Shown: positions 3,922 through 39,393 of the stretch, one piece after another | Layout: every line of letters starts with the position of its first letter | Numbering within the stretch: position 1 is the stretch's first letter | Assembly (NCBI GenBank): GCA_025355385.1 | Contig: JANXZS010000121.1 | Coordinates: 1 to 64,000, forward strand | Reading direction: 5' to 3' | DNA: 64,000 nucleotides | DNA from: Acidobacteriaceae bacterium | Lineage (GTDB): Bacteria > Acidobacteriota > Terriglobia > Terriglobales > Acidobacteriaceae | Position numbers and translations under genes: made by a program | The notes under the pieces: generated by a model | Databases searched by the model: none | What the model saw: the letters and a program-made list of their open reading frames with translations, nothing else | Told to the model about the DNA's origin: nothing

Positions 3922-3941
3922 TAGTCAAGCAGATTAACTAA
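3922..3941. promoter_or_regulatory. MarR-type operator-like dyad (site A)
   Basis: TAGTCAAGCAGATTAACTAA. Both half-sites (TAGTCAAG and TTAACTAA) match the dyad repeated before the other units of this locus. It lies about 135 bp upstream of the minus-strand pair small PEP-CTERM-like gene and propeller lipoprotein. Confidence 0.7.
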
Positions 3942-4065
3942 TTTTGTGACGTATATTTTGCAAGCAACGCCTTACCGGCAACATTCTGGATTAGCCGTGC
4001 TATTGCGTATGAATGAAGGTTGGAGTAATCCTTTGGGCCAATCGGCGAGTACGGCAGGCCTGTAC

Positions 4066-5244
4066 CTAGAATGCTGAAATCCCTGTCGCACTCTGGCCTA
4101 GGATGAGCGTGTGGATATCGTGGGTGCCCTCGTACGTCTTCACCGACTCTAGATTCATCATGTGGCGCATGACGGGGTAATCGTCCGTAATGCCGGTCGC
4201 ACCCAGAATGTCTCGCGCCATACGCGCACACTCTAAGGCCATCCATACGTTATTCCGTTTAGCCATCGAGATGTGTTGGAATTGGGCTTTGCCTCTATCC
4301 TTGAGTCGACCTACCTGCAGTGCCAGTAGCTGTCCTTTGGTGATTTCGGTCAGCATCCAGGCGAGTTTCTCCTGCACGAGTTGATGCGACGCAATGGGCT
4401 GATTGCGAAACTGTTTGCGCTGCTGGGCGTATTGCAGCGCCGCGTCGTAACACGACATTGCCGCTCCAATTGCACCCCAACTGATGCCATACCGTGCCTG
4501 CGAGAGGCACATCAGCGGAGATTTTAGACCGCCGCTCGTCGGCAGAATACTCTCCGCCGGTATGCGGACGTCCTGCAGCGAAAGCCCCGAGGTGACGGAC
4601 GCCCGTAGCGACCACTTTCCGTGGATATCAGTAGCGGAGAAGCCGGGGCGATCGGTCTCGACCAGGAAGCCGCGAATTTCGGCTTCTTCGTCCTCGAGCT
4701 TCGCCCAGATCACCGCAACATCGGCGACCGAGCCGGAGGTGATCCACATCTTCTCTCCATTCAGGAGGTAGCCGTCGCGGTCGCGGCGTGCCCGTGTGCG
4801 CATGCCTCCAGGGTTTGAGCCAAAATCGGGCTCTGTGAGGCCAAAGCACCCAAGCTTCTCTCCAGTGGCCAGCTTCGGCAGCCAGAACTCCTTCTGCTTC
4901 TCAGAACCGAAAGCGTAGATAGGGTACATAACCAGGGCTGACTGCACACTGACGAAGCTGCGGATTCCGGAATCGCCGCGCTCCAACTCCTGGGTGAGAA
5001 GACCGTATTCGACATTACTGATGCCGGAGCAGCCATAGCCATCGAGCGTGGCGCCGTAGAATCCTAACTCACCCATTGGTCGAACCAATTCGCGGGGAAA
5101 GCGACCTTCGCGATTGCACTGTTCGATGATCGGGATAAGGTTTTGCTCGATGAATCCGCGAGTCTGATCGCGAATAAGGCGTTCATCCTCGGAGAGCAGA
5201 GAATCAAACTGAATAAAGTCAAAGCCTTGAAACTTAAAGCCCAT
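4066..5244 (-). CDS. gcdH: Glutaryl-CoA dehydrogenase
   Basis: This is an FAD enzyme that oxidises and decarboxylates glutaryl-CoA to crotonyl-CoA, passing electrons to ETF; it acts in lysine, tryptophan and dicarboxylate breakdown. The 392-residue protein matches GCDH throughout, not just acyl-CoA dehydrogenases in general: SVQSALVMYPIYAFGSE, GCFGLTEPDFGSNPGGM, the WITSG motif, ARYGISWGAIGA, and the catalytic glutamate in TYEGTHDIHTLILG near the C-terminus. The start at 5242-5244 is preferred over one four codons upstream because GGAG lies six bases before it. It is 58 bp downstream of the GH3 gene on the same strand, so probably co-transcribed from operator site B. The matching ETF genes are at 33.1-34.8 kb. 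Confidence 0.92.
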   Translation of the reverse strand: MGFKFQGFDFIQFDSLLSEDERLIRDQTRGFIEQNLIPIIEQCNREGRFPRELVRPMGELGFYGATLDGYGCSGISNVEYGLLTQELERGDSGIRSFVSVQSALVMYPIYAFGSEKQKEFWLPKLATGEKLGCFGLTEPDFGSNPGGMRTRARRDRDGYLLNGEKMWITSGSVADVAVIWAKLEDEEAEIRGFLVETDRPGFSATDIHGKWSLRASVTSGLSLQDVRIPAESILPTSGGLKSPLMCLSQARYGISWGAIGAAMSCYDAALQYAQQRKQFRNQPIASHQLVQEKLAWMLTEITKGQLLALQVGRLKDRGKAQFQHISMAKRNNVWMALECARMARDILGATGITDDYPVMRHMMNLESVKTYEGTHDIHTLILGQSATGISAF

Positions 5245-5301
5245 TGGCTTCTCCATTCAAACGGCATGGCTGTGAGCCAAAACCGATATCTCGCTTGGCC
5301 T

Positions 5302-7653
5302 TCAAGCGGATGGGTCCCCATGACCGACTTCGGCCACTTCGAAAGTTGCACGCAGGCCGTCCTGGCTGCTGCCGCCCGCCAGGATGGAGTAGAGGCCGAG
5401 GTTGACCTCGGGCTTGAGTTGCTCGTTCAAGAATGCCAACTCGTTTCGGCCCAGGATAAACGTCGCGGTCTGACTTGCACCGGCGGCCAGCGAGATTCGC
5501 TGGAATCCGCATAGTCGTTGCACCGGCTGGGCGATTCGGCAACTTGAGCACGAGAGATAGAGTTGAACGACATCTTCGCCGTCGATCGTCCCCGTATTGG
5601 TTACCGTGACGCTGATCCGAACCGTGCCTTCCCGCGAAATCTGACGCGGCACAATATCGAGACCTGAGTACGCAAATGTGGTGTAAGACAGTCCATGACC
5701 AAATGGAAACTGCGGGTTGTAGCGAACGCTGTCAAACACGTCCGGAACCTCGAGCGTCGATCCGGCTCGGCCGTAGGGTCGATGGTTGTACGGCATGGGA
5801 AGCTGTCCGGTGAACCGAGGGAACGTGATGGGCAAGTGTCCACTGGGATTGCACGCGCCGGTAAGAACCTGCGCGACGGCATTGCCGCCCTCTTCGCCGG
5901 GATACCAGGCCATCAAAACGGCATCCACTTTCTCGACCCAACGTGATAGGGTGACGGGCCCGCCGGAGATAAGCACCACCACAATCGGCTTCCCGAGCGT
6001 GGAGAGAGTATCGATCAAGGCCTCTTGCTTGCCCGTCAGGTCAAGTTCAGCGCGATCCATCTCTTCCCTCGCCGTCTCTCTGCTGCCGCCCATGAAGAGG
6101 ATTACGGTATCTGAATGACTCACTGCAGCGATGGCATCTGGGAAGCCGTCGATACTATCCCCGTCTAGTTCACAGCCCTTCGCATAGTGGATTGCAACAC
6201 TTGCGCCAAGATGGTCGACCAGAGCCTGTCGCGGCGTCACCGCCTTGTAGACTTCAGGCGTGTAGCCTCCTTGGCTGACGACGTCCGCGTTTGGTCCTAC
6301 GACCGCGATCGACTTGATCGTGGACTTTAGAGGGAGCACGGAGCGATCATTCTTCAGTAGCACGATGGAGAGCCACGCCATACGCAGAGCAATCTTGCGA
6401 TCCTCCTCTGTATCGGCATCCCACGAAGCCTTGTCCGAATCGTTATATCGGCTCTCGAATAGTCCGAGGCGAAACTTGATCCGCAAGACTCGGCGAACCG
6501 CGTCATCCAGAGCCTCCTGCTCGCAGCGACCAGCCTTCACCTCCCCGGCGAGGCTGCCATTGTAGACATCCAGCTTCGGTGTCTCTACATCGGTACCCGC
6601 AGAGAGTGCACGGCGTGCTGCCTCTCCAGATGTCGCGGCCACATGAAGATCGTTGATCGAGTTGGCAATCGCCCCCCAGTCAGACAAGACAATTCCCTGG
6701 AAATTCCACTCCGTGCGCAGCACGTCGGTGAGCAGCCAGCGATTCAAAGCACACGGTACACCACCCAGCGTATTGTAGGCACACATCAGGCCAAGCGCTC
6801 CGCCTTCCCTGACCGCAGCTTTGAACGGAACGAAGTAGAGTTCGCGGAGGGCGCGCTCAGATAGTTCAACGTCGCCGCTATCGCGCCCGCCCTCTCCTAC
6901 AAAGTTTGCGACAAAGTGTTTGGGCGTTGCAATCACACCCTGCGACTGCAATCCCTGAACAAAGGCAACGCCAAGCCTAGCAGCTAGGAATGGATCTTCG
7001 CCGTAGGTCTCTTCAGTACGGCCATGACGCGGATCGCGCCCCAGGTCGAGTACGGGTGCAAAGACTTGCCGAATACCTCGGTTGCGTGCGTCCCGGCCTA
7101 CAACGACGGCCGCTCGCCCAACCAATTCCGGGTCCCAAGTTGCCCCCATGGCGAGCGGAGTCGGGAAGATGCAGCCGCCATTGGCGCGCAGCCCGCGAAG
7201 GCCCTCTCCATCAACCAGCGCAGGGATGCCAAGTCGCGTCTCTTCCGCCGCAACACGCTGAATAAGATTCGTTACCTCGGTTCCCGACCTTGCATCCATA
7301 TCGGCAATGGGTAGGCTGATCGATCCCATCCCCGCAGCACCAAAGTACTTCTTGAGAGTCTCCGCAGTGTATGTTCCCAAGTCTGTAAACCGGTTTACGT
7401 GGGTGCCTATTTTCAGAGAGCAGAGCTGCCGTACCTTTTCATCCAAAGTCATCCGGCTGAGCAGATCGCTCACTCTTCGCTCAGTTTCTTGATCTGGCGT
7501 TCGTATCAGAGAGGCCTCGTTCCCGGCCCCTCCGTGTGCCGTCTGCTCGGCGGCGACAGGGAGGGTACCCAGTCCCGGAGCGCCGAGCCCACGTAAGCAA
7601 CCAGCGAAGGCCGCTCCTCCGATAACCAACGCTCTTCGGGTAATCTCTGCCAT
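5302..7653 (-). CDS. GH3 beta-glycosidase (BglX-like), Tat-exported
   Basis: Codes for 783 residues. The N-terminus has a twin-arginine-type signal (EITRRALVIGGAAFAG). The GH3 barrel follows, with GEDPFLAARLG, the KHF motif (ATPKHFVANF) and the nucleophile aspartate in GIVLSDWG near residue 325. The second alpha/beta domain carries the GGSRETAREEMDR segment, and a fibronectin III-like domain closes the protein (VTVTNTGTIDGEDVVQLYLS). GH3 enzymes of this layout release beta-linked glucose, xylose or related sugars; the exact substrate is not readable. It is first in a unit with glutaryl-CoA dehydrogenase and is divergent from the GH110-like gene, with the dyad at 7773-7792 between them. Confidence 0.9.
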   Translation of the reverse strand: MAEITRRALVIGGAAFAGCLRGLGAPGLGTLPVAAEQTAHGGAGNEASLIRTPDQETERRVSDLLSRMTLDEKVRQLCSLKIGTHVNRFTDLGTYTAETLKKYFGAAGMGSISLPIADMDARSGTEVTNLIQRVAAEETRLGIPALVDGEGLRGLRANGGCIFPTPLAMGATWDPELVGRAAVVVGRDARNRGIRQVFAPVLDLGRDPRHGRTEETYGEDPFLAARLGVAFVQGLQSQGVIATPKHFVANFVGEGGRDSGDVELSERALRELYFVPFKAAVREGGALGLMCAYNTLGGVPCALNRWLLTDVLRTEWNFQGIVLSDWGAIANSINDLHVAATSGEAARRALSAGTDVETPKLDVYNGSLAGEVKAGRCEQEALDDAVRRVLRIKFRLGLFESRYNDSDKASWDADTEEDRKIALRMAWLSIVLLKNDRSVLPLKSTIKSIAVVGPNADVVSQGGYTPEVYKAVTPRQALVDHLGASVAIHYAKGCELDGDSIDGFPDAIAAVSHSDTVILFMGGSRETAREEMDRAELDLTGKQEALIDTLSTLGKPIVVVLISGGPVTLSRWVEKVDAVLMAWYPGEEGGNAVAQVLTGACNPSGHLPITFPRFTGQLPMPYNHRPYGRAGSTLEVPDVFDSVRYNPQFPFGHGLSYTTFAYSGLDIVPRQISREGTVRISVTVTNTGTIDGEDVVQLYLSCSSCRIAQPVQRLCGFQRISLAAGASQTATFILGRNELAFLNEQLKPEVNLGLYSILAGGSSQDGLRATFEVAEVGHGDPSA

Positions 7654-7772: not shown

Positions 7773-7792
7773 TAGTAAGGTAACTTAACTAT
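7773..7792. promoter_or_regulatory. MarR-type operator-like dyad (site B)
   Basis: TAGTAAGGTAACTTAACTAT, between the divergent GH3 and GH110-like genes. It matches site I almost base for base. An upstream GATTGCGAAAAA block (about 7728-7740) recurs next to site C. Confidence 0.75.
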
Positions 7793-7839: not shown

Positions 7840-9696
7840 GTGCGGGAACGTATCCTACTTAATTCCGTCCTTCTCGTGGCCTTGGTGCTGCCAGGAGCTT
7901 CGCTATTGCGAGCGCAGCAAGTGGACGTCACAGCCTTTGGCGCTGTGCCGGACTCCTCCCAGGATGCTACGCCAGGAGTTGCCAGAGCCATCACATTCGC
8001 GAAGACTCTGGTCCGTCCCGTCCTCGATTTTCCCACAGGACGCTATGAATTCTGGCCGGACAAAGCACAGCACCGTCACTATTTCATCTCCAACCACGAC
8101 GCTTTAAAGAGCCGCGCGGTTGCTATGCCGCTAGAAGGGGTGAGGAACATCACCTTGGCTGGCCATGGCTCGATCTTCGTTTTTCATGGACTCATCCTGC
8201 CAATTAGCGTTGTTGGCGACAACAAAGTCACGCTACGCGACTTTTCGATCGACTACGCGACACCGCATGTGTTAGAGACGGTAGTCGCCGGTGTGGATGG
8301 TGACGCTGTCGACCTAAAGATCCCAACGGGCCAGATATACGCAGTAGAGAACGGCCACATCTGTGCAAGCGCAGAGGGATGGAAGCAGTGCCTGGGAACC
8401 AGCCAGGAGTTTGATAGCGTCAGCAAAGCCATCGCCTGGAACACCCATGCCGATCTTGATTTTGGGGATTTGAGCGCGGTCGAGCTTTCGCCAGGCACAG
8501 TTCGCGTCAACGGTATGTCAATAGAGCCGACCAAGGGGAACCGTCTTATCCTATGGAACCGCGACCGCCCCAACCCAGCCATTTGGGTGAGCGAGAGTTC
8601 CGCGGTGTCAGTCGTCAACGTCGATGTCTTCAGCGCGCAGGGCATGGGGTTTCTTGCACAGAAAAGCGCGAACATTCATCTCGATCGATTCAACGTGAGG
8701 CTTGGTGGTGATAATGCGCGCTATGTGTCAAGCGAAGCGGATGCCGTACACTTTTCCAATTGCCGGGGAATGGTCGTCGTTGAGAACGGAATTTTCGAAA
8801 ACATGCTGGACGATGGCATCAATGTGCATGGCGACTATCTACGCATAGCTAAGGTTATCTCTCCGAGTTCGGTGCAACTGGAGTGGGTCAATCCGCAGAC
8901 GTTTGGCTTCTCGTTTGCTTCCCCGGGCGAACACATTCAGTTCGTCAAGTCTGCCACACTGCTTGATTATGGGGTAGGTGTTGTCAAGGGCATGAAGCGG
9001 ATCGACGATCGGCATCTGCAAGTCACTTTAAATGATCCTTTGCCCGTCCGAACGCAGGTCAGTGATGCTGTCGTAAATTCCGACTGGCAACCCAGTGTTA
9101 TCTATCGCAACAATATCGTCCGCCGCAACCGTTCGCGCGGGACAATCTTCAAGACCACCAAGGGAGTTTTGGTGCAGGGCAATACGTTTGACCACCTTTC
9201 TGGCCCGGCTGTCCTGCTGATCGCGGATGCAATTGACTGGTTTGAATCACAGCCAGCAAGCAATGTCATAATCTCGGGAAACCATTTCATCGACCAGGTT
9301 TCGACCTATGGTCCGGCTCCGATCACCATCAATCCGCGTGTCGATCTGACAAGCGAGGCACAGCGATACAGTGTGCGCCGAATTCTGATCCGCAAAAACG
9401 ATTTCTCCGTATTCGAGCGGCCGCTGCTCGTCGCGAACTCAGTGAACGGGCTCGTTTTTCGCAACAATGCTGTTCGCATCAACACGGACTACAAGGCGTT
9501 CCGACCGATAGATACACCGATTCTCTCGTTCGATCATGCACGCTGCATTGATGTCGAGAACAACAACCTTCCTTGGACTTTGGCGGGTGCGGGCGTAGCG
9601 CTCGAGGATTCACGGCTGGTGCAGATCGACAGCGACAAGGCTTCAGCAAGTGGTCATTTGAAATGGCTTTCGCAATGCCGATCAGCGCTGCGGTAA
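7840..9696 (+). CDS. GH110-like alpha-1,3-galactosidase (right-handed beta-helix)
   Basis: The GTG start follows GGAGG by eight bases. A signal peptide (LLNSVLLVALVLPGASLLRA) precedes about 595 mature residues. The body is a parallel beta-helix. Characteristic stretches recall GH110: EADAVHFSNCRGMVVVENG, then FENMLDDGINVHGDYLRI, then VIYRNNIVRRNRSRGTIFKT and the WFES segment. GH110 enzymes remove terminal alpha-1,3-galactose from branched or linear glycans; the Asp pair in MLDDGINVHG lies in the region described as catalytic. A generic pectate-lyase-like protein is the alternative. It shares operator site B with the divergent GH3 gene, and a GH29 fucosidase lies next door (convergent). Confidence 0.72.
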   Translation: MRERILLNSVLLVALVLPGASLLRAQQVDVTAFGAVPDSSQDATPGVARAITFAKTLVRPVLDFPTGRYEFWPDKAQHRHYFISNHDALKSRAVAMPLEGVRNITLAGHGSIFVFHGLILPISVVGDNKVTLRDFSIDYATPHVLETVVAGVDGDAVDLKIPTGQIYAVENGHICASAEGWKQCLGTSQEFDSVSKAIAWNTHADLDFGDLSAVELSPGTVRVNGMSIEPTKGNRLILWNRDRPNPAIWVSESSAVSVVNVDVFSAQGMGFLAQKSANIHLDRFNVRLGGDNARYVSSEADAVHFSNCRGMVVVENGIFENMLDDGINVHGDYLRIAKVISPSSVQLEWVNPQTFGFSFASPGEHIQFVKSATLLDYGVGVVKGMKRIDDRHLQVTLNDPLPVRTQVSDAVVNSDWQPSVIYRNNIVRRNRSRGTIFKTTKGVLVQGNTFDHLSGPAVLLIADAIDWFESQPASNVIISGNHFIDQVSTYGPAPITINPRVDLTSEAQRYSVRRILIRKNDFSVFERPLLVANSVNGLVFRNNAVRINTDYKAFRPIDTPILSFDHARCIDVENNNLPWTLAGAGVALEDSRLVQIDSDKASASGHLKWLSQCRSALR

Positions 9697-9730: not shown

Positions 9731-11302
9731 CTAAGCGATCATCATTTCGAACGCGACACTCAAATCTGCAGTTGCTGGCTTCAACTCCGGTAACAAGACG
9801 CGGAGACCGCCAGGATCCTGGACAAACTTCAGATTGCCCCCATAGCCCAGCATACGTACATTGACAATTTTGCCTGGGTTTTGCGGGCTTGCGGACGCGA
9901 GCGATGGGATCAGCGCCTCCTTATCTGGCCATCCCATGATGAATGCGTAGATGGTTCTTCCTTTGGTGGTGAAGCGGATATCCTGACTGGTAAGATCGGG
10001 TTTTAATTTCTCATTGAACTTCTCCTGGCCGACCAGAACCCTTGTGGAAGGGCCTTCTCCATAGATCTTCCACGGGCGGGTGGCGTGTATAGCTTCGCCA
10101 TGCACGGTCATCCACTCGGTGACGGTCTGAAGTATCTGAAGTTCGCGGGCGTCAAGTTCACCGGAGGCTGGCAGCGGAAAATTAAGAAGCAAATTGCCGT
10201 TCTTGCTAACGATATCGACCAATAGGTCGATTACTTTCTTCGGCGACTTGTATTCATAACCTTCCTTGTAGTGCCAGTCGCCGATACAGGTGTCCGTCTG
10301 CCATGGGTTGGGCCAAATGTCATCCAACACGCCCCGCTCACGGTCCAAAACGCACGTGCCGACCGTACAGTCCGCCATAGTCTTACTGTTATAGACAGAT
10401 TCGACCTTGCCAGCGTTGGCCATGGCGCTGGTGTTGTACTCCTCGGCCACCAGGCTAAGGCCGTACTCGTCAAATGGAATGCCGCCGTCGGTATAGAGCA
10501 GATCGGGCTTATGCTGGTCGACAAGGTCCTTTATGCGTGTGAAGTACTCCCGCTTCCAGACGTCTGGCGCAACCACCCCCATGGGCTGCGCTCTCTTGAT
10601 AAAGTCGGCGGGTTGGCCAGTGTAGTCGTGATAGAGGGAGGAATATCGCGAGTCGGCTCCGTCGTATGGGATACCCGCCAGTTCACCAGTGGTGTCGCTG
10701 CCGTGAGATGTGGCGAACCAGTCGTAGCTGTTGGAAAGGTGCTCGCTTACGCCAAATCGCAAACCGCGCTTACGGGCCGCCTGTGCCCATAGTCCCACGA
10801 TATCCTTCCTCGGTCCCATATCTACAGCATTCCAGTAGGGATGGAACTTTGAGTTCCACATATCGAAGTTATCGTGATGCACCCCCATGCTGAAGAAGTA
10901 CTTTGCGCCCGCCTTGGTGTAAAGGTCGATGAGGTGGTCCGGATCCCATCGCTCCGCGGTGAATACAGGGATGGCGTCCTTGTAGCCAACCTTCGACGGA
11001 TGGCCGAAACGTTTGCGGTGATACTCGTATTGCGGCGATCCCTCAATATACATATTGCGCGCGTACCAGTCACCATCGCCAATTGCGGACTGCGGACCCC
11101 AGTGCGCCCATATACCAAACTTTGCATCGGGAAACCAACTTGGGATGGTGTAGGTCTTCAGCGAGGCGCGCGTGGCCGCGAACGGTCCGGACAGAGAACC
11201 GAGGTCAGGGCCTGAAGTCTGCTGAGAGAAGAGTCGCGGCGCTGCAAGAACGGGAACCGTATAAGCCATGAACTCTAAGGCACGGCGGCGAGTGAGCTTC
11301 AC
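9731..11302 (-). CDS. GH29 alpha-L-fucosidase, Tat-exported
   Basis: The preferred start is the GTG at 11300-11302, because AGGAAAGGA lies just upstream and it puts a Tat signal at the very N-terminus (KLTRRRALEFMAYTVPVLAA). The open frame itself begins at 11329. The family is clear from WFPDAKFGIWAHWGPQS, AKYFFSMGVHHDNFDMW and the nucleophile aspartate in DLLYTDGGIPF near residue 272. GH29 enzymes release alpha-linked fucose. The acid/base residue varies in this family and is not assigned here. The gene follows the TonB receptor by about 70 bp on the same strand, so both are probably transcribed from site C. Confidence 0.9.
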   Translation of the reverse strand: MKLTRRRALEFMAYTVPVLAAPRLFSQQTSGPDLGSLSGPFAATRASLKTYTIPSWFPDAKFGIWAHWGPQSAIGDGDWYARNMYIEGSPQYEYHRKRFGHPSKVGYKDAIPVFTAERWDPDHLIDLYTKAGAKYFFSMGVHHDNFDMWNSKFHPYWNAVDMGPRKDIVGLWAQAARKRGLRFGVSEHLSNSYDWFATSHGSDTTGELAGIPYDGADSRYSSLYHDYTGQPADFIKRAQPMGVVAPDVWKREYFTRIKDLVDQHKPDLLYTDGGIPFDEYGLSLVAEEYNTSAMANAGKVESVYNSKTMADCTVGTCVLDRERGVLDDIWPNPWQTDTCIGDWHYKEGYEYKSPKKVIDLLVDIVSKNGNLLLNFPLPASGELDARELQILQTVTEWMTVHGEAIHATRPWKIYGEGPSTRVLVGQEKFNEKLKPDLTSQDIRFTTKGRTIYAFIMGWPDKEALIPSLASASPQNPGKIVNVRMLGYGGNLKFVQDPGGLRVLLPELKPATADLSVAFEMMIA

Positions 11303-11369
11303 TGGATGCGGTCCTTTCCTCATGAACACAATCTGCTCTGACGACTAAAGCGCGGAACCCCGATGACAA

Positions 11370-15197: not shown

Positions 15198-15449
15198 GCT
15201 GGCACTCCTTCGGGGAACCGGGGATTTAGAACCAGATACTTCAGGCGCCGCAGTCGTCTTATTAAGCTCTGTCAATCATTGCGTGAAAAACAAGATCCAT
15301 GATCGCATTCGAATAACTCACTAGCTGTGATGCTCCCCTAGACCCAAAGTAAAACCGGGCAGAGCGGAAGGTTCTGGAAGGTCAGCTCGCTGAAAGAGAA
15401 CCTCCATTGAGTTAACCGATTGCGAAAAAGATAGTCGGTGGTTTCGATA

Positions 15450-15469
15450 TAGTCAAGTCACTTAACTAA
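15450..15469. promoter_or_regulatory. MarR-type operator-like dyad (site C)
   Basis: TAGTCAAGTCACTTAACTAA, close to the consensus. It lies in the roughly 420-base gap between the divergent TonB receptor and ALDH7 genes, which holds no gene. The block GATTGCGAAAAA seen near site B recurs at about 15418-15429. Confidence 0.8.
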
Positions 15470-19550: not shown

Positions 19551-19563
19551 GTCCATTTCCATA

Positions 19564-23129: not shown

Positions 23130-23132
23130 CCG

Positions 23133-25497: not shown

Positions 25498-25556
25498 GAA
25501 GTCCTCCGTGCGGCGTGTTGTTCCGTAACTGCGCCTAACTACTAGTCCAAATGAAT

Positions 25557-27115: not shown

Positions 27116-27143
27116 TTAACTAAATCGCTTGACTATCGTCAAG
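27116..27143. promoter_or_regulatory. Divergent operator-like site F, with perfect repeat CTTGAC-TATC-GTCAAG
   Basis: CTTGACTA (27128-27135) equals one half-site of the shared dyad, and TTAACTAA at 27116-27123 resembles the other in altered orientation. CTTGAC-TATC-GTCAAG (27128-27143) forms a perfect inverted repeat seen only here. The 440-base gap between the sulfatase and the GH-A-like gene also holds a 9-bp tandem repeat (27191-27217); no gene. Confidence 0.5.
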
Positions 27144-27190
27144 TCCTAGTCTTACATTCTGCCAAAGCTTGAGAAGGCGCGCAAGGTGCG

Positions 27191-30098: not shown

Positions 30099-30118
30099 AT
30101 AGTTAAGTAGGTTGACTA
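30099..30118. promoter_or_regulatory. MarR-type operator-like dyad (site G)
   Basis: ATAGTTAAGTAGGTTGACTA on the plus strand; its complement TAGTCAACCTACTTAACTAT follows the consensus. It lies about 105 bp before the second GH-A-like gene and the ETF genes behind it. Confidence 0.7.
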
Positions 30119-30224
30119 CATTTCCGTCATGCACTATCATCTACCAATGCAAAACCAGGAGCGCCTGTATCCAGCGATGCCTCCAGCCCAGGAGTGGCAC
30201 AGCGACGTTTTACAAGGAGAATGA

Positions 30225-33017
30225 ATGTCCCGCCGCTCTGCCCTTCTGTGTTTCCCCACACTGGCTCTGCTCGCCTTTGGCGGATGCGGGAGCGGACCGA
30301 GCGAGCCCACAACGCCCGCGGGCCTGCTCACTTCTGAGAGCCTTTCTTTTCCCAATACAGTGGTCGCCTCGACTGCTATGGCGCAGACGGTCTCACTCTC
30401 CAATCCGGGCAATGCCGCGCTCAGCATCAGCGGCATAACCATAACAGGGGCAAATGCGGGCGACTTCGCCCAGACCAACACCTGCGGAACCATGCTTGCT
30501 TCTGGAGCGAATTGCTCTATCGCGATTTCCTTCACTCCAGCCGCACCCGGCAACTTCACCGCGACTCTTACCGTGTCCGACAACGCTACTGGGACAATGA
30601 ACTCAGCCACGCTTCAACTCACGGGGGCGGGCATTTCTGCGCCCGCGCCGATGGCGATACTCATTCCGGCAAGTCTTAGTTTCCCCAATACGACTGCCAC
30701 CACGTCGACCTCACCGCAGATCCTCACGCTTAGCAATCCGGGCACTGCAGCGCTCAACATATCCACCATCAGCATCACAGGGGCCAACCCAATAGACTTC
30801 ACCGAGACCAACAACTGTGGCAGCACGCTGGCAGCGAATGCAACCTGCGCAATTTCGGTGACGTTTACGCCGGCGGCGGCTGCTACCTTTGCTGCCAACC
30901 TTTCTGTTGCGGATAACGCGTCAGGCTCGGCCCAAACATCTGTTCTGACCGGCACTGGCACTGCAACACCAGTACCAATCGCCGTACTGACTCCTTCGAG
31001 CCTGTCAATGCCGACAACAACCCTAAACACCACGTCCACGGCGCAAATGATTACGCTGACGAACACAGGCGCGGCGACGCTGAACATCGCCGGCATCACG
31101 GTTACTGGGGCCAATCCGGCGGACTTTGCCGAAGCCAATACGTGCGGATCGACGCTCTTGGTTAACGCGAGTTGCGAGATTTCGGTTACATTTACGCCGC
31201 AGTCGCCTGCCCCCTTTACGGCGAGCATCTCCGTCGCAGACAATGCTGCTGGTTCTGTCCAAACGGCTGCAATCAAAGGAACCGGCATTGTGGCAGCGTT
31301 GAACCCGATTCCCCTCAGCTTCTATGGATTCACTGTTAACACGGGCTGCGACATCTCGAACGAGCGCCCTACTAACCAGGCATTAAATTGCAACAGCACA
31401 GAGAGCCACTCGATGCCGGGGTTGCCATTCAGCTGGTCACGCTCGCTCGGTTCAAGCACTTTGAAATGGAGTGACCTGGAGGAGTGTGACCCGACCGGGA
31501 GTGTCTGTCCGATTGCCGGTCATGGCTGCGACAGGAATGGCGTTGGGGCAAATGGTGTCAAGTGCTCGAAGTCATTTCTGTATGCTGGCTGCCAGCCAAA
31601 CCTGAAGTCCCCTACTGACCCTGCCAACTGCGCCTACTATTGGACCCAATTTGATTTCTTCACACATCTCTACAACACAGGCAACGTGGACTGGATGTAC
31701 ACACTCACCAGTACGCCGGACTTTCTCAGCGTAGAAGGATCGCGCTGCACCGGCGCGGGCATCGGAAATAACGGTGCTGACCTAACGTGCGCATACGCGG
31801 CGAATCCCAACTGCTCGGGCACTGGCGCGGCAGACGGGCAGTGCGTGCCCCCTTACGACCTCGACTCTACGCCCGGAAGCGGCGATGGCAAAGGCACGGA
31901 TCAGAACCTCCTTTACTTCCTCACCGCTCTCATGACCCACATGGAGATCAATTCCGAAAGTATCCAGTATATCGAGATATGGAATGAGCCTTCCACGTGC
32001 CAGGCGTGGAACCACTCTGACGGCTCGCAAAATTGTGGCGTGCCTGCAACAGGAGCGGTGGCAACGGCAACCGACCTGGCAAGAATTGCGTCTGATGCCC
32101 GTGCGCTGGTCCATCAATACGATCCACGAGTGTTGATCACTTCGCCGCCGACCGCTGGTGGCACTTCCAGCTACGCCTATATGCAGACGATTCTCACAGC
32201 GGGAGCCACTCCATACGACCTGGTCGGCTTCCATGGCTACGATATTCTCCCGGTTCCGGGAGGCACAGGCGCCTGTCCATCTCTTTGCCCCGTTCCGGAG
32301 TACGAAGTTTCAGAATGGGCTGCACTGCAGAATGTGCTTACTACGCTCAACCTCACATCGCTGAAGGCGATCAACACGGAGTTCAGTTGGGGCGGATATC
32401 AGAATGTGACAATTCCGGATATGCGCGCGGCACAGGCAGCACGGCTATATATTCTCCAGGAATCGTTCTACCCTGCGCTGCAGCGAGTGGGTTGGTATGG
32501 CGAGGACTTTCCGGTGGACAACACGCCCGACCCAAACAACCCCGGACATCCCAACGGAGGTACCGGCGAGTTCTGGGCATCGGGCGCTACCAACGTTTCC
32601 GACGGCTGTACGGTACCCGACCCGATCCAGGGTGGGTACGACTGCCCGGCCGGACTCGCCATGCAGCAGGTCAAGAAGTGGACTCTGGGTGCAACCTATT
32701 CTGCTCCCTGCAGCTGCAGTGCCAGTCCCAACGGTGGCAGCTGCGCAGCGACACCGGCGACAGGAGTCTGGCAATGCTCCATCAGCAAGCCGGGCGGTTA
32801 CTCCGGTCTCTTGGTTTGGGATAGCACTTACACTACTTATCCGTGTCCTACTACGCCAGCTGCCGCAACCGCCCCCTGTGGGTCCGGCACATTTACGGTA
32901 CCTCCTTCCTATTCGAACGATTGGGAAGATTTGAATGGCAATGTGAACGGATTGCAGGGATCGACCGTGACAATCGGTGCCAAGCCCATTCTCTTGGAAA
33001 ATGAGGTCTTTCCGTAG
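30225..33017 (+). CDS. Lipoprotein with three Ig-like repeats and a GH-A-like glycosidase domain, paralogue 2
   Basis: AAGGAG precedes the ATG; 930 residues. The signal ends LLAFGGCGSG, a lipobox. Residues about 38-345 are three tandem choice-of-anchor-D/ASH-type Ig domains, each with SLSFPNT- or SLSMPTT-like starts and a TCGS/ANCSISVTFTP core. The rest parallels the 27.5-kb paralogue: FYGFTVNTGCDIS, TSTPDFLSVEGSRCTG, acid/base QYIEIWNEPSTC, DLVGFHGYD, and nucleophile candidate AINTEFSWGGYQ. A closing beta domain ends IGAKPILLENEV. The Ig stalk would hold the enzyme away from the membrane. Catalysis is inferred from the two Glu motifs only. It leads a unit that continues into etfB and etfA. 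Confidence 0.62.
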   Translation: MSRRSALLCFPTLALLAFGGCGSGPSEPTTPAGLLTSESLSFPNTVVASTAMAQTVSLSNPGNAALSISGITITGANAGDFAQTNTCGTMLASGANCSIAISFTPAAPGNFTATLTVSDNATGTMNSATLQLTGAGISAPAPMAILIPASLSFPNTTATTSTSPQILTLSNPGTAALNISTISITGANPIDFTETNNCGSTLAANATCAISVTFTPAAAATFAANLSVADNASGSAQTSVLTGTGTATPVPIAVLTPSSLSMPTTTLNTTSTAQMITLTNTGAATLNIAGITVTGANPADFAEANTCGSTLLVNASCEISVTFTPQSPAPFTASISVADNAAGSVQTAAIKGTGIVAALNPIPLSFYGFTVNTGCDISNERPTNQALNCNSTESHSMPGLPFSWSRSLGSSTLKWSDLEECDPTGSVCPIAGHGCDRNGVGANGVKCSKSFLYAGCQPNLKSPTDPANCAYYWTQFDFFTHLYNTGNVDWMYTLTSTPDFLSVEGSRCTGAGIGNNGADLTCAYAANPNCSGTGAADGQCVPPYDLDSTPGSGDGKGTDQNLLYFLTALMTHMEINSESIQYIEIWNEPSTCQAWNHSDGSQNCGVPATGAVATATDLARIASDARALVHQYDPRVLITSPPTAGGTSSYAYMQTILTAGATPYDLVGFHGYDILPVPGGTGACPSLCPVPEYEVSEWAALQNVLTTLNLTSLKAINTEFSWGGYQNVTIPDMRAAQAARLYILQESFYPALQRVGWYGEDFPVDNTPDPNNPGHPNGGTGEFWASGATNVSDGCTVPDPIQGGYDCPAGLAMQQVKKWTLGATYSAPCSCSASPNGGSCAATPATGVWQCSISKPGGYSGLLVWDSTYTTYPCPTTPAAATAPCGSGTFTVPPSYSNDWEDLNGNVNGLQGSTVTIGAKPILLENEVFP
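30335..31285 (+). repeat. Three tandem ~310-bp coding repeats (Ig-like modules)
   Basis: The three modules of the lipoprotein gene resemble each other in DNA as well as protein (about 30335-30640, 30655-30960, 30980-31285). Recombination between them could change stalk length. Confidence 0.65.
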
Positions 33018-33077
33018 CACTGGATTCGAGACGCAGAACGTTAAGCATTTAAGTGGAGATATCGTGGGCCGCATCAA

Positions 33078-33842
33078 ATGAAGATCATCGTAGCCATCAA
33101 GCAAGTGCCCGAACGCGACGCAGCGCTCACCATCGGTCCGGATGGCAAGTGGATCAATGAGAGCGATCTCACGTACACCACCAATGAGCCCGACGCCTAT
33201 GCGCTCGAAGAAGCCCTCCAACTCAAGGAGAAGAATGGAGGCGAAGTCATTGCTCTCTGCGCGGGGCCCGAGCGTGCCGCCTCGACCCTCCACGAGGCCC
33301 TCGCCAAAGGCGCCGACCGAGCCATCCATATCTTGGCTGACGATCTGGTACAACGAGACACTCTTGCGCTCGCGCAATTGATCGCCGACGCCATCCGCCC
33401 CGAGTTTCCTGATCTCATCCTCATCGGTATACAGTCTGACGACCTCGGTTTAGGTCAGACAGGCGTCGTCCTCGCTGAGCGACTCGGCATCCCCCACGCC
33501 ACCATTATCACGCGTGGGGAAATGACTCCTATAGGACTGCGCGTGAAGCGGGAGCTCGAAGACGGATGGTTCCAGAACGTCGACATGCCGCTACCCGCGC
33601 TGCTCGCCATCCACTCGGGCGGCAACAAGCTGCGTTACGCGACGCTGATGAGTATCAAGAAAGCGAAGAGCAAGGAGACGCGGACCGTCGAGACTGCCAC
33701 CTCGACTGTGCGCGCGAACCTCACGCTTGAACGCGTTTATTTGCCGAAGAAGCAGAAGCGCACGGAAATGCTCAAGGGCACACCGGCCGAGATCGCCGCC
33801 CAGTTGGTCGAGAAGCTGAAGTTCGAGTTGAGGGTGCTATGA
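33078..33842 (+). CDS. etfB: Electron-transfer flavoprotein, beta subunit
   Basis: The 254-residue protein starts MKIIVAIKQVPERDAALTIG and has the ETF-beta landmarks: NEPDAYALEEALQLKE, ALAKGADRAIHI, GIQSDDLGLGQTGVVLAERLG and a Lys-rich C-terminal region that cradles AMP. ETF carries electrons from acyl-CoA dehydrogenases, here presumably the glutaryl-CoA dehydrogenase at 4-5 kb, to ETF-quinone oxidoreductase. It overlaps the start of etfA by 4 bases (ATGA). It lies 60 bp after the GH-A-like lipoprotein on the same strand. Confidence 0.92.
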   Translation: MKIIVAIKQVPERDAALTIGPDGKWINESDLTYTTNEPDAYALEEALQLKEKNGGEVIALCAGPERAASTLHEALAKGADRAIHILADDLVQRDTLALAQLIADAIRPEFPDLILIGIQSDDLGLGQTGVVLAERLGIPHATIITRGEMTPIGLRVKRELEDGWFQNVDMPLPALLAIHSGGNKLRYATLMSIKKAKSKETRTVETATSTVRANLTLERVYLPKKQKRTEMLKGTPAEIAAQLVEKLKFELRVL

Positions 33843-34809
33843 CCGGAGTGCTCGTTGCTGTTGATCAATGGTTGGCGGGGCTAAGCCGGATCAGCCTCGA
33901 GACTCTCGCTGCGGGCCAGCAGTTGGCGAAAGCACGGGGGGTAGAATGCTCGGCCGTGGTGCTGGGCGAAGGCATCACGACTCTAGCGAATGGACTCAGC
34001 GGAAAGAACCTGGCCAAGGTGTTTGTGGTCGAGCATCCGCTGCTGAAGAACTACACTGCGGATGGCTATGTCCACGTGCTCGAGCAGGTCGTAAGACAGA
34101 CCGCGCCCGCATATGTTCTCTTCCCGCATACATACCAAGTGCGGGACTTTGCGCCGGCATTGGCAGCGCGTTTTGAGCAGGTGTTGGTCTCCGATGTGAT
34201 TGCGATTCAAGACGGTCCGTTTTTGTGAGGCAGCTCTTTCAGGGCAAACTTAACGCCGATTACAGGCACGCGGGCCGCAATCCATGTTTGGTCTCGATCC
34301 AGGCGGGCAGCTTCCGTCCCGAGATGCTCGAGGTCGGAGGCGAGGCGGCGATAGAGGTGATCGCTGTCGACCTCACGCCCGCGCAAATTCGCACTAGACC
34401 GAGCGAACCGTTCCGCGAATCGGCGCATGCGATAGATCTGGCGGCCGCCCCGGTAATTGTTGCGGTCGGTCGCGGCATCCGCGAACAGCAAAGTATTCCC
34501 CAGTTGCAAGACTTGGCCGATGCCCTGGGCGCAGAGTTGGCCGACTCGCGTCCCGTCTGCGACGCGGAGTGGCTGCCCATGGAACGCCTGGTGGGTAGCT
34601 CTGGCCACACGGCTGCTCCGAAGCTCTATCTGGCCGTTGGAATCTCCGGTGCGATTCAGCACATAGTCGGCATGAAGGGATCGAGGACCGTCATCGCTAT
34701 TAACAAGGACGAGAACGCGCCTATCTTCGAGATGGCGGACTACGGCATCGCCGGAGACCTTTTTGAGATCGTCCCGGCACTCATAGAGGCCATAAATGAA
34801 GCAAAGTGA
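33839..34809 (+). pseudogene. etfA: Electron-transfer flavoprotein alpha subunit, split at a T-run
   Basis: Two adjoining frames together give a full alpha subunit (about 323 residues). The first (33839-34228, 129 aa) carries the N-terminal domain, LVAVDQWLAGLSRISLE to VSDVIAIQDGPFL. The second (34225-34809, 194 aa) holds the FAD domain: VRQLFQGKLNADYRHAG, SSGHTAAPKLYLAVGISGAI and INKDENAPIFEMADYGI. The break is at TTTTT (34220-34224); one extra T restores the reading P-F-F-V-R-Q. As written, the stop TGA overlaps a GTG start (GTGA), so the halves might be made as two chains by coupled translation. A read error is the simplest explanation; if so, this is an intact gene. Confidence 0.85.
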
Positions 34810-34887: not shown

Positions 34888-37253
34888 TCACGCTTTCGAT
34901 TCAGCAATGATTCGGTCGTACGTGGAACGCGCATGCTCATAGGCTCTCTTAGCTTCTTCTATTTCTTTGGGCCGTATCCGTGACGACTTACTATCCCAGC
35001 AAACGTCTACGGCTTTGCGGCACCACTGTGCGCTCGCCTGCGAAGCCCGTATGGGGGCATTGTCGACCAATACCTCAATCGGATTTGTGTGCGATGAGGG
35101 CATCACTCGCAGGGCAATCCAACTACTCCTGTCGATCTTCTGGCTAAACTCCAACTCATGAAGAGCACCATCCGCTTGAATCTCGGACTGCTGCACGGCC
35201 ACTCCATTCACAATTAATTCGACAGGGACCTTGCGCGTTTGCCCGATGCGAGCGCGTTCAAGATGCCACTGTGGCTTTTCCTGTAGGGGCGAGTTGGCGA
35301 TGCGCTTCGTGACGTCGGTGATTTCCGGCTCCAACCGCGCGCAAATCTGTGCGGTCACCCGCACGCCCGAGCAGCCTACGGCGTTTACACGCCAGTTCGA
35401 TACCGGCGAGCCGCTTTCAGAAACAACTTTGAGGTTGAAAATATGGCTCCTGCCATCACCCACGTAAGAGCGACCCGCCCTAATGCCAGATATCCAATCG
35501 CTATAGCCGGCGTCGCCAATTGGGCGCTTGTCTAGCTTCACGTAGCTGCGGCCGTCGCCGACGCGAACGTCGGTGAGGCATGGAAAGTCGGTCTCCCCCG
35601 CGAGCGTCGTGCGAAATCCGCAGTTGAGTGTGTGATACCAGATGTTCAGTTCCGCATGCGGGAGCGTATCGCACGTGGAGACGAAGTTGACCACTCGGTG
35701 AGTCACATCTACGATGTACTCATTTGCGCCAATGCCATCAAAGCGCGGCATTAGGTAGTTCGGCAGCTCCTGCGTGTCCACCACCAACCCGAAGCCCGAA
35801 TGCGCGTAGCCGACCACCGCACCCTGAGCCTTGGCCCACTTGAGAATTGGTATGTTCCAGCTTGGCCAGTCATCCAGTGTCGGCGCACCGGGGAAGTTCT
35901 GCTTCGTCAGGCGCAACAATACCAAGTGTCCGCAATGACTGGATGGGAAACCGGAGATCTCAAGGTCATAGCGGAGCAGCGCTGCCCCCTGTGTCATCGA
36001 TGGATTCAGACTCATGTCCATATGCTTCATTGTCGAAGACGCAAACTGGCGGACGTGTCCGCTGAAAAATTGACGCTGGTAGTAGAAGCCGGGACCCCAC
36101 GTTAATACATCGCCCAGATCTAGCGCCTCGCCCTGCACTTGCCGATACATAACATCAGGCGTCACTCCTTCAGACGGACTATCGTAGTGCGCGCATCCAG
36201 CAGCGTGAATATGAGTATCGCCGCTGTAGTAACCAAAGTCTGAGGGTTTCACCCACCGTTTCAACTCAAGCTTCATCGACGCGACTCCAGCATCTCCTAT
36301 CGCGAGGGTTTTCTTCTCTCGCAGATACTCCGGACCGCGACCGTAATCCACATCGAAAGTGCCAGCCGGAAGTCGGATCGCCTCACCGTCTTTCCGGTAT
36401 ATATGCCGCTCAAACCACAAGTCGGGCAGTGCGCGTTTTCCCTGTGCCGGATAGACCCTTCCGAGTGAGTCGGTGATCAGCAAAGAAGCGGTCGTTGGCA
36501 AACCGTCCTCGTCGTGGATTCTCACAGACACATCCTTCGCCGGACGGCAGTCAAATAGCACCGGCAGCATCGAGTAGAAAAATGGATACTGCTCGGTCAG
36601 CGAGCCCGCACTCGTCTGCGCGCGGAACGTAGCCTCGCGCTTACCCTGGTCCCTGCTATAGATCTGCACGATCCGATACTCGATGGCAAGCCCGGAGAGC
36701 GTTTCCAGAAGCGGAGGCTTGTCCCACAGATTGACTGCAATCCACCGGTTTTTCGCCTCGATGAGTCAACTGCGCCAATGCTTCCATCGTGAGCCGCTAT
36801 GCTCGCTCCGTTGGATTGCCGTCCCATCGGGCCCGCCTGCTGGCAACCGAGGTTCAAGGTTGAGGCGTCGCCCGCATCGTTTAGAACTTTTACCAGGAAG
36901 GTCGTCCATCCCTGTTCGACCAGTTCAGCCTTGGCTCGACCGCGCGACAAGGTTACTCGATCTTCCGGATTGATTTCAATGTTCAGCAGTACATATGCGT
37001 CGAGTACTTCCTGGATACTACTCACCCCAGCGGCTTCAGTGTGGCTATTAAAGGCAGCCTGAAGCGCCGCACGTTGTGCCGCCGGAAGCGGCTCGCCGAT
37101 CGACTGCAATGCATCAAGGAGCCGTTTGATTTGGGCCGCCAGAGGCTGCAAGGCGACCGTGGTCGCACCCAAAGCCGGTGCGCTGCGCAGCAGCACCTCG
37201 GCTCCTGCGGCCATGAGGGCAATTTGGCTAAACGTGCGACGCGTCGTGAACAT
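34888..37253 (-). pseudogene. CehA/McbA-family metallohydrolase (PHP-type), frameshifted
   Basis: The N-terminal frame starts at 37253 with a Tat signal (FTTRRTFSQIALMAAGAEV) and reads to LVKVLNDAGDASTLN. The C-terminal frame continues with IVQIYSRDQGKREATFRAQT, the metal motif DFGYYSGDTHIHAAGC, GYAHSGFGLVVD and TTLAGETDFPC. A run of five A on the coding strand (36749-36753 as TTTTT) marks the switch: one more A gives KNRWIAVNLWDKPP, as the family expects. Full length would be near 788 residues. CehA and McbA hydrolyse carbaryl-type esters, but this family is broad and the substrate is open. It is divergent from the CocE-like gene with site H between. Damage may be a read error. Confidence 0.8.
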
Positions 37254-37345
37254 TTTGGATGCCCTCACGTGCAGTTTCACCCCGACTGAGGGGTCTTCAA
37301 CATGTGCGCGTTATTTTGCGAGAATATAGCCTATTATTTGCGATA

Positions 37346-37365
37346 TAGTCAACTTACTTATCTAT
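37346..37365. promoter_or_regulatory. MarR-type operator-like dyad (site H)
   Basis: TAGTCAACTTACTTATCTAT, one or two mismatches from the consensus arms. It is placed between the divergent CehA/McbA-like and CocE-like genes. Confidence 0.65.
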
Positions 37366-37427
37366 GTTAGTAAATAATATGGAATCGTTCACCGCGGGCC
37401 ACGCTCTGATCGAATAGAAAGGGGATC

Positions 37428-39311
37428 GTGCGGAAGCGTCTCTCCAATCTGGTTTTGGCCATTTGTTGCTTTATGTCGGCTTGTGCTCAACCGCCCCAGC
37501 CTGAATCTGCGTCCGAGATCGCGTATCTCCGATCGCACTACATCAAGCATGAATTCCGCATCCCGATGCGAGATGGAGTCCGTCTCTTTACCGCAGTGTA
37601 TGTGCCGCGCCCCGGCGCCTTTGCGGACCCCGGCCCATATCCCCTACTGATCACGCGAACGCCTTATGGCGTAGGTCCTTATGGAGAGAAGAGCTATCCC
37701 CTGGCCTTGGGCCCGAGCGATGAGTTCGAAAAGACGGGGTACATCTTTGCCTATCAGGATGTGCGCGAACGCTTCATGTCAGAGGGCACATTTATGGAGA
37801 TGCGGCCCCATCTCGGCATCAAGGAGTCTCCAAAGGATGTGGACGATTCATCGGACATGTACGACACGGTCGAGTTCCTTCTGAAGCACACAGCCAGCAA
37901 TAACGGAAAAGTCGGGCTTGTAGGTATGTCTTATCCGGGGTTCTACACCTCGGCTGGCATCATTGATTCACACCCGGCCATCAAGGCGGCCAGCCCGCAG
38001 GCGCCACTTACCGACCTTTTCCTCTCCGATGACGCTTATCACGGCGGCGCATTCATGCTGGCGGACAATTTCGGCTTCTACCTCGGCTTCCTTCCGATGC
38101 ATACCCCAACAACGAAGACGCCCCATTCCCCATTTCGATTCGGTGCGCAAGATATGTACTCGTTCTATTTGAGCATCGGAGCCACGTCGAATCTGGAGAC
38201 TAAGGTTCTGCACGACCCAAACCCTTATTTTCACGATCAACTTATCCACGATACTTACGACGACTACTGGCAGTCGCGTGACATCTCCCGGCACCTGACT
38301 GACGTGCACTGCGCGGTGATGACAGTCGCCGGCTGGTTCGATGGCGACGACCTGGCCGGCCCATTCAAGACCTTCCACTCCATCGATGCGCTGAATCCGG
38401 ATGCGGTTAACACTCTCGTCGTGGGCCCATGGAACCACGGCGGATGGGCACACAACGATGGCGACCAACTCGGCGATGTTGAGTTCGGTTCGAAGACGTC
38501 CTTGTTTTTCCGGAGCCAGATTCAGTTTCCATTTTTCGAGCACTATCTAAAAAATAAAGCAAGCGCTCCTCTTCCCAAAGCATATGTCTTTGAGACCGGC
38601 ACAAATGTCTGGCACAAGTACGATTCGTGGCCACCAAAGATCGCCATTGAGCGAACTCTGTATCTTCGCGCGGGAGGACGTCTGAGTTTTGACCCTCCTC
38701 TGGCAAGCGAGGACGATCACGACCAGTATGTGAGCGATCCGGGGCGGCCGGTCCCGTTTCTGAATTTCAATTTCAGTGATGTGCCCGCGCGCTACGTGGA
38801 TGGCGATCAGCGCTTCGCCTCCCGTCGCCCGGACGTACTGGTTTATCAAACAGAGCCTCTAACAGAGGACCTCACTATTGCTGGCCCAGTTGCGCCACAG
38901 TTGCGCATCGCATCGACTGGAACCGATTCAGACTTTGTAGTGAAATTAATTGACGTATATCCAGATGACTATCACGATTCGCCGCCTGCACACATGGCTG
39001 GATATCAACAACTGGTTCGTGGCGAACCGATGCGCGCCAAGTTCCGCGATTCGTGGGAAAGACCGCAACCGCTGACGCCAGACGCCATCACTAAAGTCAA
39101 CTTCTCCATGCCCGATATCAACCACACATTCTTGAGAGGTCATCGCATCATGGTGCAGATTCAGAGCTCATGGTTCCCGTTGACCGACAGAAATCCCCAG
39201 ACTTTTACGGATATTCCATTTGCCAAGCCGGAGCAGTTCGTGAAAGCGACGGAGAGCATCTACCACTCTCCAACCACGCCAAGTTCTCTCGATATCCTCG
39301 TGTTGCCTTGA
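37428..39311 (+). CDS. CocE/NonD-family hydrolase (alpha-amino-acid-ester-hydrolase type), lipoprotein
   Basis: GTG start; 627 residues. The leader ends FMSACAQPP, a lipobox. The X-Pro dipeptidyl-peptidase S15-type domain follows: MRDGVRLFTAVYVP, RTPYGVGPYGE, nucleophile Ser in VGLVGMSYPGFY, Asp in VAGWFDGDDLAGP and His in VVGPWNHGGWAH. The C-terminal jelly roll is intact (LTIAGPVAPQLRIASTGTDSDFVVKLIDVYP). Close relatives hydrolyse or transfer alpha-amino acid esters, while CocE itself splits cocaine. An ester between an amino-acid or aromatic acid and the rest of the glycoconjugate would suit the locus. That substrate is a guess. Confidence 0.88.
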   Translation: MRKRLSNLVLAICCFMSACAQPPQPESASEIAYLRSHYIKHEFRIPMRDGVRLFTAVYVPRPGAFADPGPYPLLITRTPYGVGPYGEKSYPLALGPSDEFEKTGYIFAYQDVRERFMSEGTFMEMRPHLGIKESPKDVDDSSDMYDTVEFLLKHTASNNGKVGLVGMSYPGFYTSAGIIDSHPAIKAASPQAPLTDLFLSDDAYHGGAFMLADNFGFYLGFLPMHTPTTKTPHSPFRFGAQDMYSFYLSIGATSNLETKVLHDPNPYFHDQLIHDTYDDYWQSRDISRHLTDVHCAVMTVAGWFDGDDLAGPFKTFHSIDALNPDAVNTLVVGPWNHGGWAHNDGDQLGDVEFGSKTSLFFRSQIQFPFFEHYLKNKASAPLPKAYVFETGTNVWHKYDSWPPKIAIERTLYLRAGGRLSFDPPLASEDDHDQYVSDPGRPVPFLNFNFSDVPARYVDGDQRFASRRPDVLVYQTEPLTEDLTIAGPVAPQLRIASTGTDSDFVVKLIDVYPDDYHDSPPAHMAGYQQLVRGEPMRAKFRDSWERPQPLTPDAITKVNFSMPDINHTFLRGHRIMVQIQSSWFPLTDRNPQTFTDIPFAKPEQFVKATESIYHSPTTPSSLDILVLP

Positions 39312-39373
39312 CGGTTGCGGCCGCCGCACCGTCGCCAGACCATATTCAGAAAGTGACAAAGCGAATGGCGAAA

Positions 39374-39393
39374 TAGTAAGGTTACTTAACTAA
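39374..39393. promoter_or_regulatory. MarR-type operator-like dyad (site I)
   Basis: TAGTAAGGTTACTTAACTAA, 64 bp before the second sulfatase start. Confidence 0.75.

Follow-up and report, generated by a model that had tools for sequence, protein, structure and literature searches.

The question raised by this locus is whether one short palindromic sequence, repeated in front of a long series of catabolic genes, is the operator of the MarR-family regulator that is encoded among them. The stretch analysed here (the window) comprises 64,000 nucleotides of contig JANXZS010000121.1 from the genome of an Acidobacteriaceae bacterium (GCA_025355385.1). In our study, seven strong copies of a 19-bp dyad were found in the window. 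The dyad was confined to this locus within the genome, was accompanied by a common promoter layout at most but not all of the units behind it, and was tied to the marR-hpaB gene pair in relatives. Judged from these sequences, the locus is a real, large local MarR regulon, and its kind of control is already known. We have good confidence that the MarR protein encoded at 18840-19562 has the dyad as its operator; it would repress by covering the -35 box.

The consensus of the dyad given in the original prediction was searched in the window with up to three mismatches, and seven matches were found (3922, 7773, 15450, 19787, 30100, 37346, and 39374). In 100 dinucleotide shuffles of the window the mean was 0.01 matches, and none of the 100 contained seven. 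A symmetrical 19-bp matrix built from the seven strong sites scored them at 25.3-32.2 bits, the next-best place in the window scoring 12.1 bits; with leave-one-out matrices the sites scored 20.8-31.5 bits against 13.2 bits or less for any non-site. As had been predicted, the strong sites were all (7/7) located outside the listed genes, in a region (1481-43711) of which roughly 10% is non-coding. The prediction had named nine dyads. Seven of them stand, five with exact starts and two (reported at 19786 and 30099) that really begin one nucleotide later. The eighth, at 27117, scored 12.1 bits, where 0.13 places of at least 12 bits are expected per 64 kb; it lies between divergent genes, its TTGACT arm is followed by TACATT 18 bp on, and it is probably a weak operator. 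The ninth, at 19564, was not confirmed as an operator, its score of 9.3 bits being indistinguishable from chance (0.58 places of at least 9 bits expected per 64 kb). The operators and the genes around them are as follows.

3922-3940: operator before the lipoprotein unit, 25.3 bits; -35 box TTGACT at 3923-3928, -10 box TATCTT at 3900-3905.
1481-3788, minus strand: lipoprotein unit, a 62-amino-acid secreted-type frame (3600-3788) and a lipoprotein gene (end 1481, probable start 3568) with a weak NHL-like repeat; starts read from the sequence.
7773-7791: operator between the next two entries, 28.7 bits; neither side has a good -10 box at the usual spacing.
4066-7653, minus strand: GH3 glycosidase (5302-7653) and acyl-CoA dehydrogenase (4066-5256), by Pfam.
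7840-9696, plus strand: GLAA-B-type beta-helix protein, galactosidase-like (PF23764, 59.2 bits; PF23763, 36.3 bits).
15450-15468: operator with a complete promoter on each side, 29.7 bits; TTGACT N17 TATCTT towards the transporter, TTAACT N17 TATAGT towards the aldehyde dehydrogenase.
9731-15275, minus strand: unit of an outer-membrane transporter-type protein (11370-15275; PF25183, 447 bits) and a GH29-type alpha-L-fucosidase (9731-11329; PF01120, 291 bits).
15621-17147, plus strand: aldehyde dehydrogenase, L-piperidine-6-carboxylate dehydrogenase type (NF050084, 768 bits, cut-off 730); frame open from 15471, probable start 15621 after AGGAGG, read from the sequence.
17161-18723, minus strand: class III aminotransferase behind marR (PF00202, 407 bits).
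18840-19562, minus strand: marR, 240 amino acids, the proposed repressor; its winged-helix domain of the MarR family passed both Pfam cut-offs (MarR_2, 35.5 bits, cut-off 27; MarR, 33.4 bits, cut-off 24.6).
19787-19805: operator between marR and hpaB, 32.2 bits; TTGACT arm at 19799-19804, -10 box TATGCT at 19823-19828 towards hpaB.
19873-24506, plus strand: core operon, by profile matches, of an hpaB-type oxygenase (19873-21450), flavin reductase hpaC (21454-22002), DUF2848 as third gene (22005-22721), a cupin-like protein (22731-23129, below the Pfam cut-off), and an amidase (23133-24506).
24523-27020, minus strand: sulfatase (25557-27020) and BD-FAE type esterase (24523-25497), by Pfam.
27117-27135: putative weak operator; intact right arm TTGACT at 27129-27134, degenerate left arm, -10 box TACATT at 27153-27158 towards the next gene.
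27463-29949, plus strand: secreted-looking protein of no known family, without a family match.
30100-30118: operator before the 30225 gene, 27.9 bits; TTGACT at 30112-30117, -10 box TATCAT at 30135-30140.
30225-34809, plus strand: unit of a protein that looks secreted and has three choice-of-anchor D repeats (30225-33017), and of the genes for ETF beta and ETF alpha (33078-34809), the latter split into two frames.
37346-37364: operator between the next two entries, 26.6 bits; TTGACT N18 TATATT towards CehA/McbA, the -10 box at 37323-37328.
34888-37280, minus strand: CehA/McbA family metallohydrolase in two overlapping frames (NF038032, 207 bits).
37428-39311, plus strand: CocE/NonD family hydrolase (TIGR00976, 258 bits, cut-off 66).
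39374-39392: operator before the second sulfatase, 28.7 bits; no good -10 box at the usual spacing.
39457-41031, plus strand: second sulfatase (PF00884, 165 bits); frame open from 39397, probable start 39457, twin-arginine-like, after GGAGGAGG.

On the assumption that neighbouring same-strand genes form operons, eleven units were counted behind the strong sites: the lipoprotein unit, GH3-acyl-CoA dehydrogenase, the GLAA-B-type gene, transporter-GH29, aldehyde dehydrogenase, marR-aminotransferase, the hpaB operon, the 30225 gene with ETF, CehA/McbA, CocE/NonD, and the second sulfatase. The sulfatase-esterase unit (24523-27020) and the 27463 gene have the weak 27117 site only. Before the FGE gene (42725) no operator was found, a place at 42800 (12.0 bits) falling inside the FGE reading frame, and in the matrix scan no place from 44 kb to the end of the window exceeded 6.6 bits. 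The motif is thus missing before FGE and in the mobile region, as had been predicted, and the statement that it stands before every catabolic unit was too strong.

The confinement of the dyad was examined by a pattern search, and not by a matrix scan, of the draft genome (321 contigs, 4.63 Mb in total). Seven matches with three mismatches or fewer were present in the genome, all of them on this contig, and a reversed control pattern matched at two places. Strong matches had been expected only at this locus and at any satellite genes; with 7/7 confined to the contig, the matches are therefore not spread over the genome. When the centre was left free and two arm mismatches were allowed, 23 places were found, eight of them here (the seven strong sites and 27117) and 15 elsewhere; the latter all carry two mismatches, and the control pattern gave 43 places.

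The arm of the operator includes a -35 box, TTGACT or TTAACT. On both strands of the window 24 TTGACT hexamers were found, six inside operators (27117 included) and 18 elsewhere. A -10 box scoring at least 4.9 at a distance of 17 or 18 bp followed 6/6 of the operator hexamers and 0/18 of the others (best 2.7; Fisher p 7e-6); to the disadvantage of this comparison, the cut of 4.9 was chosen after the scores had been seen, any cut from 2.8 to 4.9 yielding the same count. Around the seven strong sites, a -10 box at the usual spacing was present on six of the 11 gene-facing sides (lipoprotein unit, transporter, aldehyde dehydrogenase, hpaB, 30225 gene, and CehA/McbA) and on none of the three sides facing away. 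Because a -10 box follows each TTGACT within an operator at 17-18 bp, the mechanism is likely to be occlusion of the -35 box. A MarR dimer would bind the dyad and cover the -35 box within its arm, and RNA polymerase would be kept off because the box is covered. Since the operator is symmetrical, one copy may shut two back-to-back promoters; at 15450 the promoters are complete on both sides, so that a single dimer might block the pair. Release of MarR would be brought about by a pathway compound, probably an acid of aromatic or acyl type; the cell would then jointly switch on uptake, deglycosylation, desulfation, cleavage of esters, oxygenation, and the oxidation of acyl-CoA. The gene set is probably turned on together because the same 19-letter switch precedes about eleven groups of genes beside one repressor gene.

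The assignment of the dyad to this MarR protein was examined in relatives. Homologues of marR were found in six of 398 family genomes (E 1e-15) and in three of 396 phylum genomes (E 1e-20). In three relatives (G061, G708, and G701) the homologue, of 45-51% identity, stands across a short spacer from hpaB, and this spacer holds the genome's only consensus match at up to three mismatches; the hpaB promoter TTGACT N17/18 TATGCT is kept in all three. DUF2848 occurs in six of 396 family genomes (the own genome, G744, G061, G708, G701, and G409), and the dyad stands before hpaB in 6/6 of them. With one mismatch allowed, a motif pattern matched 20 of 396 family genomes, with all six DUF2848 carriers among them. 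Because the window, G061, G708, and G701 had supplied the pattern, and G744 duplicates the window, G409 alone counts as an independent case. In G409 the site before hpaB scored 22 bits, with TTGACT N18 TATTCT as its promoter (read by eye), and the contig ends before any marR. In the 14 other matched genomes no module gene was found within about 1.5 kb of the match; one weak transporter match was seen there.

The copy in G744 covers positions 120-46973 of the window (contig C59, L024-L026) with 99.957% identity, eight mismatches, and 12 gap positions. G744 was binned in another genus, and a contig of a deposited Granulicella metagenome-assembled genome carries the same 47-kb stretch. All seven operator sites are unchanged in G744, where one further place matched at three mismatches. 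The identity across genera may reflect a recent transfer or misbinning, and tetranucleotides did not assign the contig to one genome or the other; the sites are confined in whichever of the two it belongs to.

Several results weigh against the MarR operator. A blunt count of similar 19-mers (up to five mismatches, all non-coding seeds) did not pick out the dyad; other, mostly G+C-rich, words topped the list. Five of the 11 gene-facing sides (GLAA-B, GH3, marR, CocE, and second sulfatase) have no good -10 box at the usual spacing, so that the marR promoter itself is without the -35/-10 layout in the window, and in the G744 copy the CehA/McbA -10 box has a different first base. With the pattern fitted to the relatives, two further, weaker places appeared in G708, and none in G061 and G701. 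In another genome, G084, a marR homologue (39%) occurs without DUF2848 or the module; a 16-bit site lies about 290 bp behind the gene, and one three-mismatch consensus match lies far off.

The dyad might instead be bound by another regulator, either the second MarR-type protein of the window (48757-49224) or one encoded elsewhere, and adjoin marR by chance. The own genome does contain 12 MarR_2 matches, including one in the right part of the window, but no place near the second MarR gene exceeds 3 bits, and each of the three relatives has its single dyad beside a homologue of this very marR gene. The recognition-helix region is also alike in the four acidobacterial proteins aligned (LHVTTAFIT or L[HD]VSTAFIT) and different in three proteobacterial proteins (LHQSGAFVT, LHLSSAFVT, and LHLSGAFVT), whose loci lack this operator. 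We therefore consider another regulator unlikely. A second possibility, which we rate as similarly improbable, is that MarR controls the core operon and itself only, the other six dyads being real sites that serve another purpose or relics of shuffled promoters. G061, G708, and G701 have the site in the core spacer only, and the five gene-facing sides without the layout would agree with this; however, the scores of the other six sites come close to that of the core site, and those at 3922, 15450, 30100, and 37346 show the same -35/-10 layout. That the dyads are scattered copies of a small mobile repeat is very improbable: seven similar short palindromes do lie within 36 kb, next to recombinase and integrase genes, and the flanks share two short matches (13 and 18 bp, E 0.006), but the 60-bp flanks are no more alike than random pairs (mean 0.286 vs 0.276, 21 pairs), the dyad was not seen in the recombinase region, and its positions in promoters are fixed. 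The original prediction of one regulon for one compound class thus survives in its first half, a local multi-promoter regulon with MarR as its probable binder, on the strength of the relatives and the promoter layout; the single compound class does not follow, as the operator is accompanied in relatives by the hpaB-DUF2848-cupin-amidase core alone.

HpaR is the regulator of homoprotocatechuate/4-hydroxyphenylacetate degradation (NCBIfam TIGR02337). Like HpaR, the protein studied here belongs to the MarR family and is linked to an HpaB-type oxygenase. The regulator did not pass the HpaR model (29.5 bits on TIGR02337, cut-off 121.2) or that of the bilirubin regulator BilQ (41 bits, cut-off 125), and the oxygenase fell far short of two HpaB models (309.6 bits, cut-off 480.2; 284.5 bits, cut-off 885.2). 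In proteobacterial plasmid modules (marR-hpaC-hpaB-cupin-amidase-DUF2848), five of seven loci contained homologues of MarR, HpaC, HpaB, cupin, and DUF2848, and four of those five also the amidase, in a gene order that differs from the window. Three annotated plasmid loci contain an ATP-binding cassette importer, unlike the module of the window. No copy of the window operator was found in the seven plasmid loci (best 10.1 bits). A Roseateles plasmid carries a different dyad, CAGTGAWATWTCACTG, at L042:13924 and L042:19738, before DUF2848 and before hpaC. It may serve as operator for the proteobacterial MarR homologue or for the neighbouring GntR, and was absent at up to two mismatches from four other plasmid loci.

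The closest model of the control is the CouR regulon of Rhodococcus jostii RHA1. There, a MarR repressor binds an inverted repeat (cATTGA-N5-TCAATg) that overlaps the -35 box at each of four promoters, two divergent promoters have an operator in common, the regulator gene lies within the cluster, and only p-hydroxycinnamate genes are served (PMC4737184). In the window, an overlap with the -35 box of a promoter was read at six of the 11 gene-facing sides of strong sites and at the weak 27117, and was not seen at five sides. As in that account, the regulator gene, likewise of the MarR family, lies within the cluster, and the operator at 15450, with -35/-10 boxes on both sides, is common to divergent promoters. 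Unlike CouR as described there, at least seven operators are present here, also before transporter, glycosidase, and sulfatase genes. In HucR-type switches, marR is divergent from the gene of an oxidising enzyme with one operator between them (PMC5487221). The marR-oxygenase pair of the window is arranged likewise, with one operator between the two genes; HucR is described with a single site (PMC5487221), whereas seven sites were found here. PheR, discussed in its paper as an IclR-family regulator, was dropped as a comparison.

The hpaB-hpaC-DUF2848-cupin-amidase core was complete in G061 and G701. In G708 no hpaC match was found in the 80 kb read, and in G409 the core was present up to the end of the contig. 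Behind the amidase, on its strand, stand GH88 and UxuA-like genes in G061 and G708, and a UxuA-like gene in G701; the hpaB operon of relatives thus continues into GH88 and/or UxuA-like genes (L013:10739-13068, L029:6955-9266, and L027:12297-13514). With these genes behind the amidase in relatives, a connection to glycan breakdown is found beyond this locus too, and the continuation appears to link the DUF2848 module to uronic-acid glycans. As a guess, a conjugate bearing sugars, sulfate, and a nitrogen-containing ring or amide would suit the enzymes of the locus. Tentatively, and with less than even confidence, we propose that an old marR-hpaB module with one operator was enlarged in one lineage, its operator, which already contains a -35 box, being placed in six or more additional spacers. 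The repressor of an oxygenase-amidase pathway would thus have gained control of transporter, glycosidase, sulfatase, and esterase genes, the cell would dismantle an entire conjugate, glycosylated or sulfated, in both its sugar and its aglycone on one signal, and the 47-kb unit would then have moved between genera.

A Bacteroidetes-type polysaccharide utilisation locus has a SusD-type lipoprotein beside the outer-membrane transporter. No SusD family member was found among the 30 reading frames scanned, small frames being left out of the scan. The DUF2848 profile gave nine weak PDB matches (best E 0.12), six of them named as fumarylacetoacetate-hydrolase-type and two more that we take to be of this type, which ties DUF2848 weakly to that fold. 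The predicted structures were of low confidence (predicted local distance difference test, pLDDT, 34 for DUF2848 and 27 for the 27463-29949 protein). Within the library covered, the literature search found no paper on DUF2848, nothing for pyrrole-2-carboxylate with monooxygenase and amidase, and, under most terms, no hpaB-amidase-cupin combination. It returned none for MarR with indole-3-acetic acid, operator and amidase, for a MarR regulon in Acidobacteria with TonB-dependent, or for MarR with sulfatase and TonB-dependent; two auxin papers, searched by word, contained no amidase, cupin, hydroxyphenylacetate, or flavin reductase. For a degradation pathway of Acidobacteria that is as yet uncharacterised, the locus supplies an operator, a regulator, and a set of genes that can be tested; it also ties DUF2848 to an oxygenase-amidase module that is present in two phyla. 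With one operator in three relatives and seven here, the growth of a local regulon is open to study.

The 27463 gene has relatives (E 1e-20) in three of 394 family genomes (the own genome, G744, and a partial match in G736); it is whole in the window and in two frames in the G744 copy. By eye, its product and its relative at 30225-33017 share I-E-I-G-N-E-P-N / I-E-I-W-N-E-P-S and T-E-Y-S-W / T-E-F-S-W, motifs resembling those of clan-A glycosidases. Pfam, NCBIfam, and PDB gave no support for a glycosidase, so that this reading of the two proteins stays a guess. No PDB relative at E 1 was found for the CehA/McbA protein or for the lipoprotein gene at 1481. The 62-amino-acid frame (3600-3788, minus strand), located between the 3922 operator and the lipoprotein gene, starts like a signal peptide and ends in PENPTAILGL...RNRHK, a possible sorting tail as judged by eye. 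ETF alpha (33839-34809) and CehA/McbA (34888-37280) are each read in two overlapping frames, with split points identical in both copies of the locus.

In the right part of the window, the second MarR-type gene (48757-49224, plus strand) lies near mobile genes, without an operator of this kind nearby. Genes resembling a cyclic-oligonucleotide-based antiphage signalling system (CBASS) were found at 55352-59345 and also at 50911-54731. The CBASS-like set contained a piece of a phospholipase-type effector (225 amino acids, later part of the model only), an oligonucleotide cyclase (491 bits), E2, E1, and JAB. The two frames before these genes matched two halves of the PADLOC Upx model, and an integrase was found at 61862-62941.

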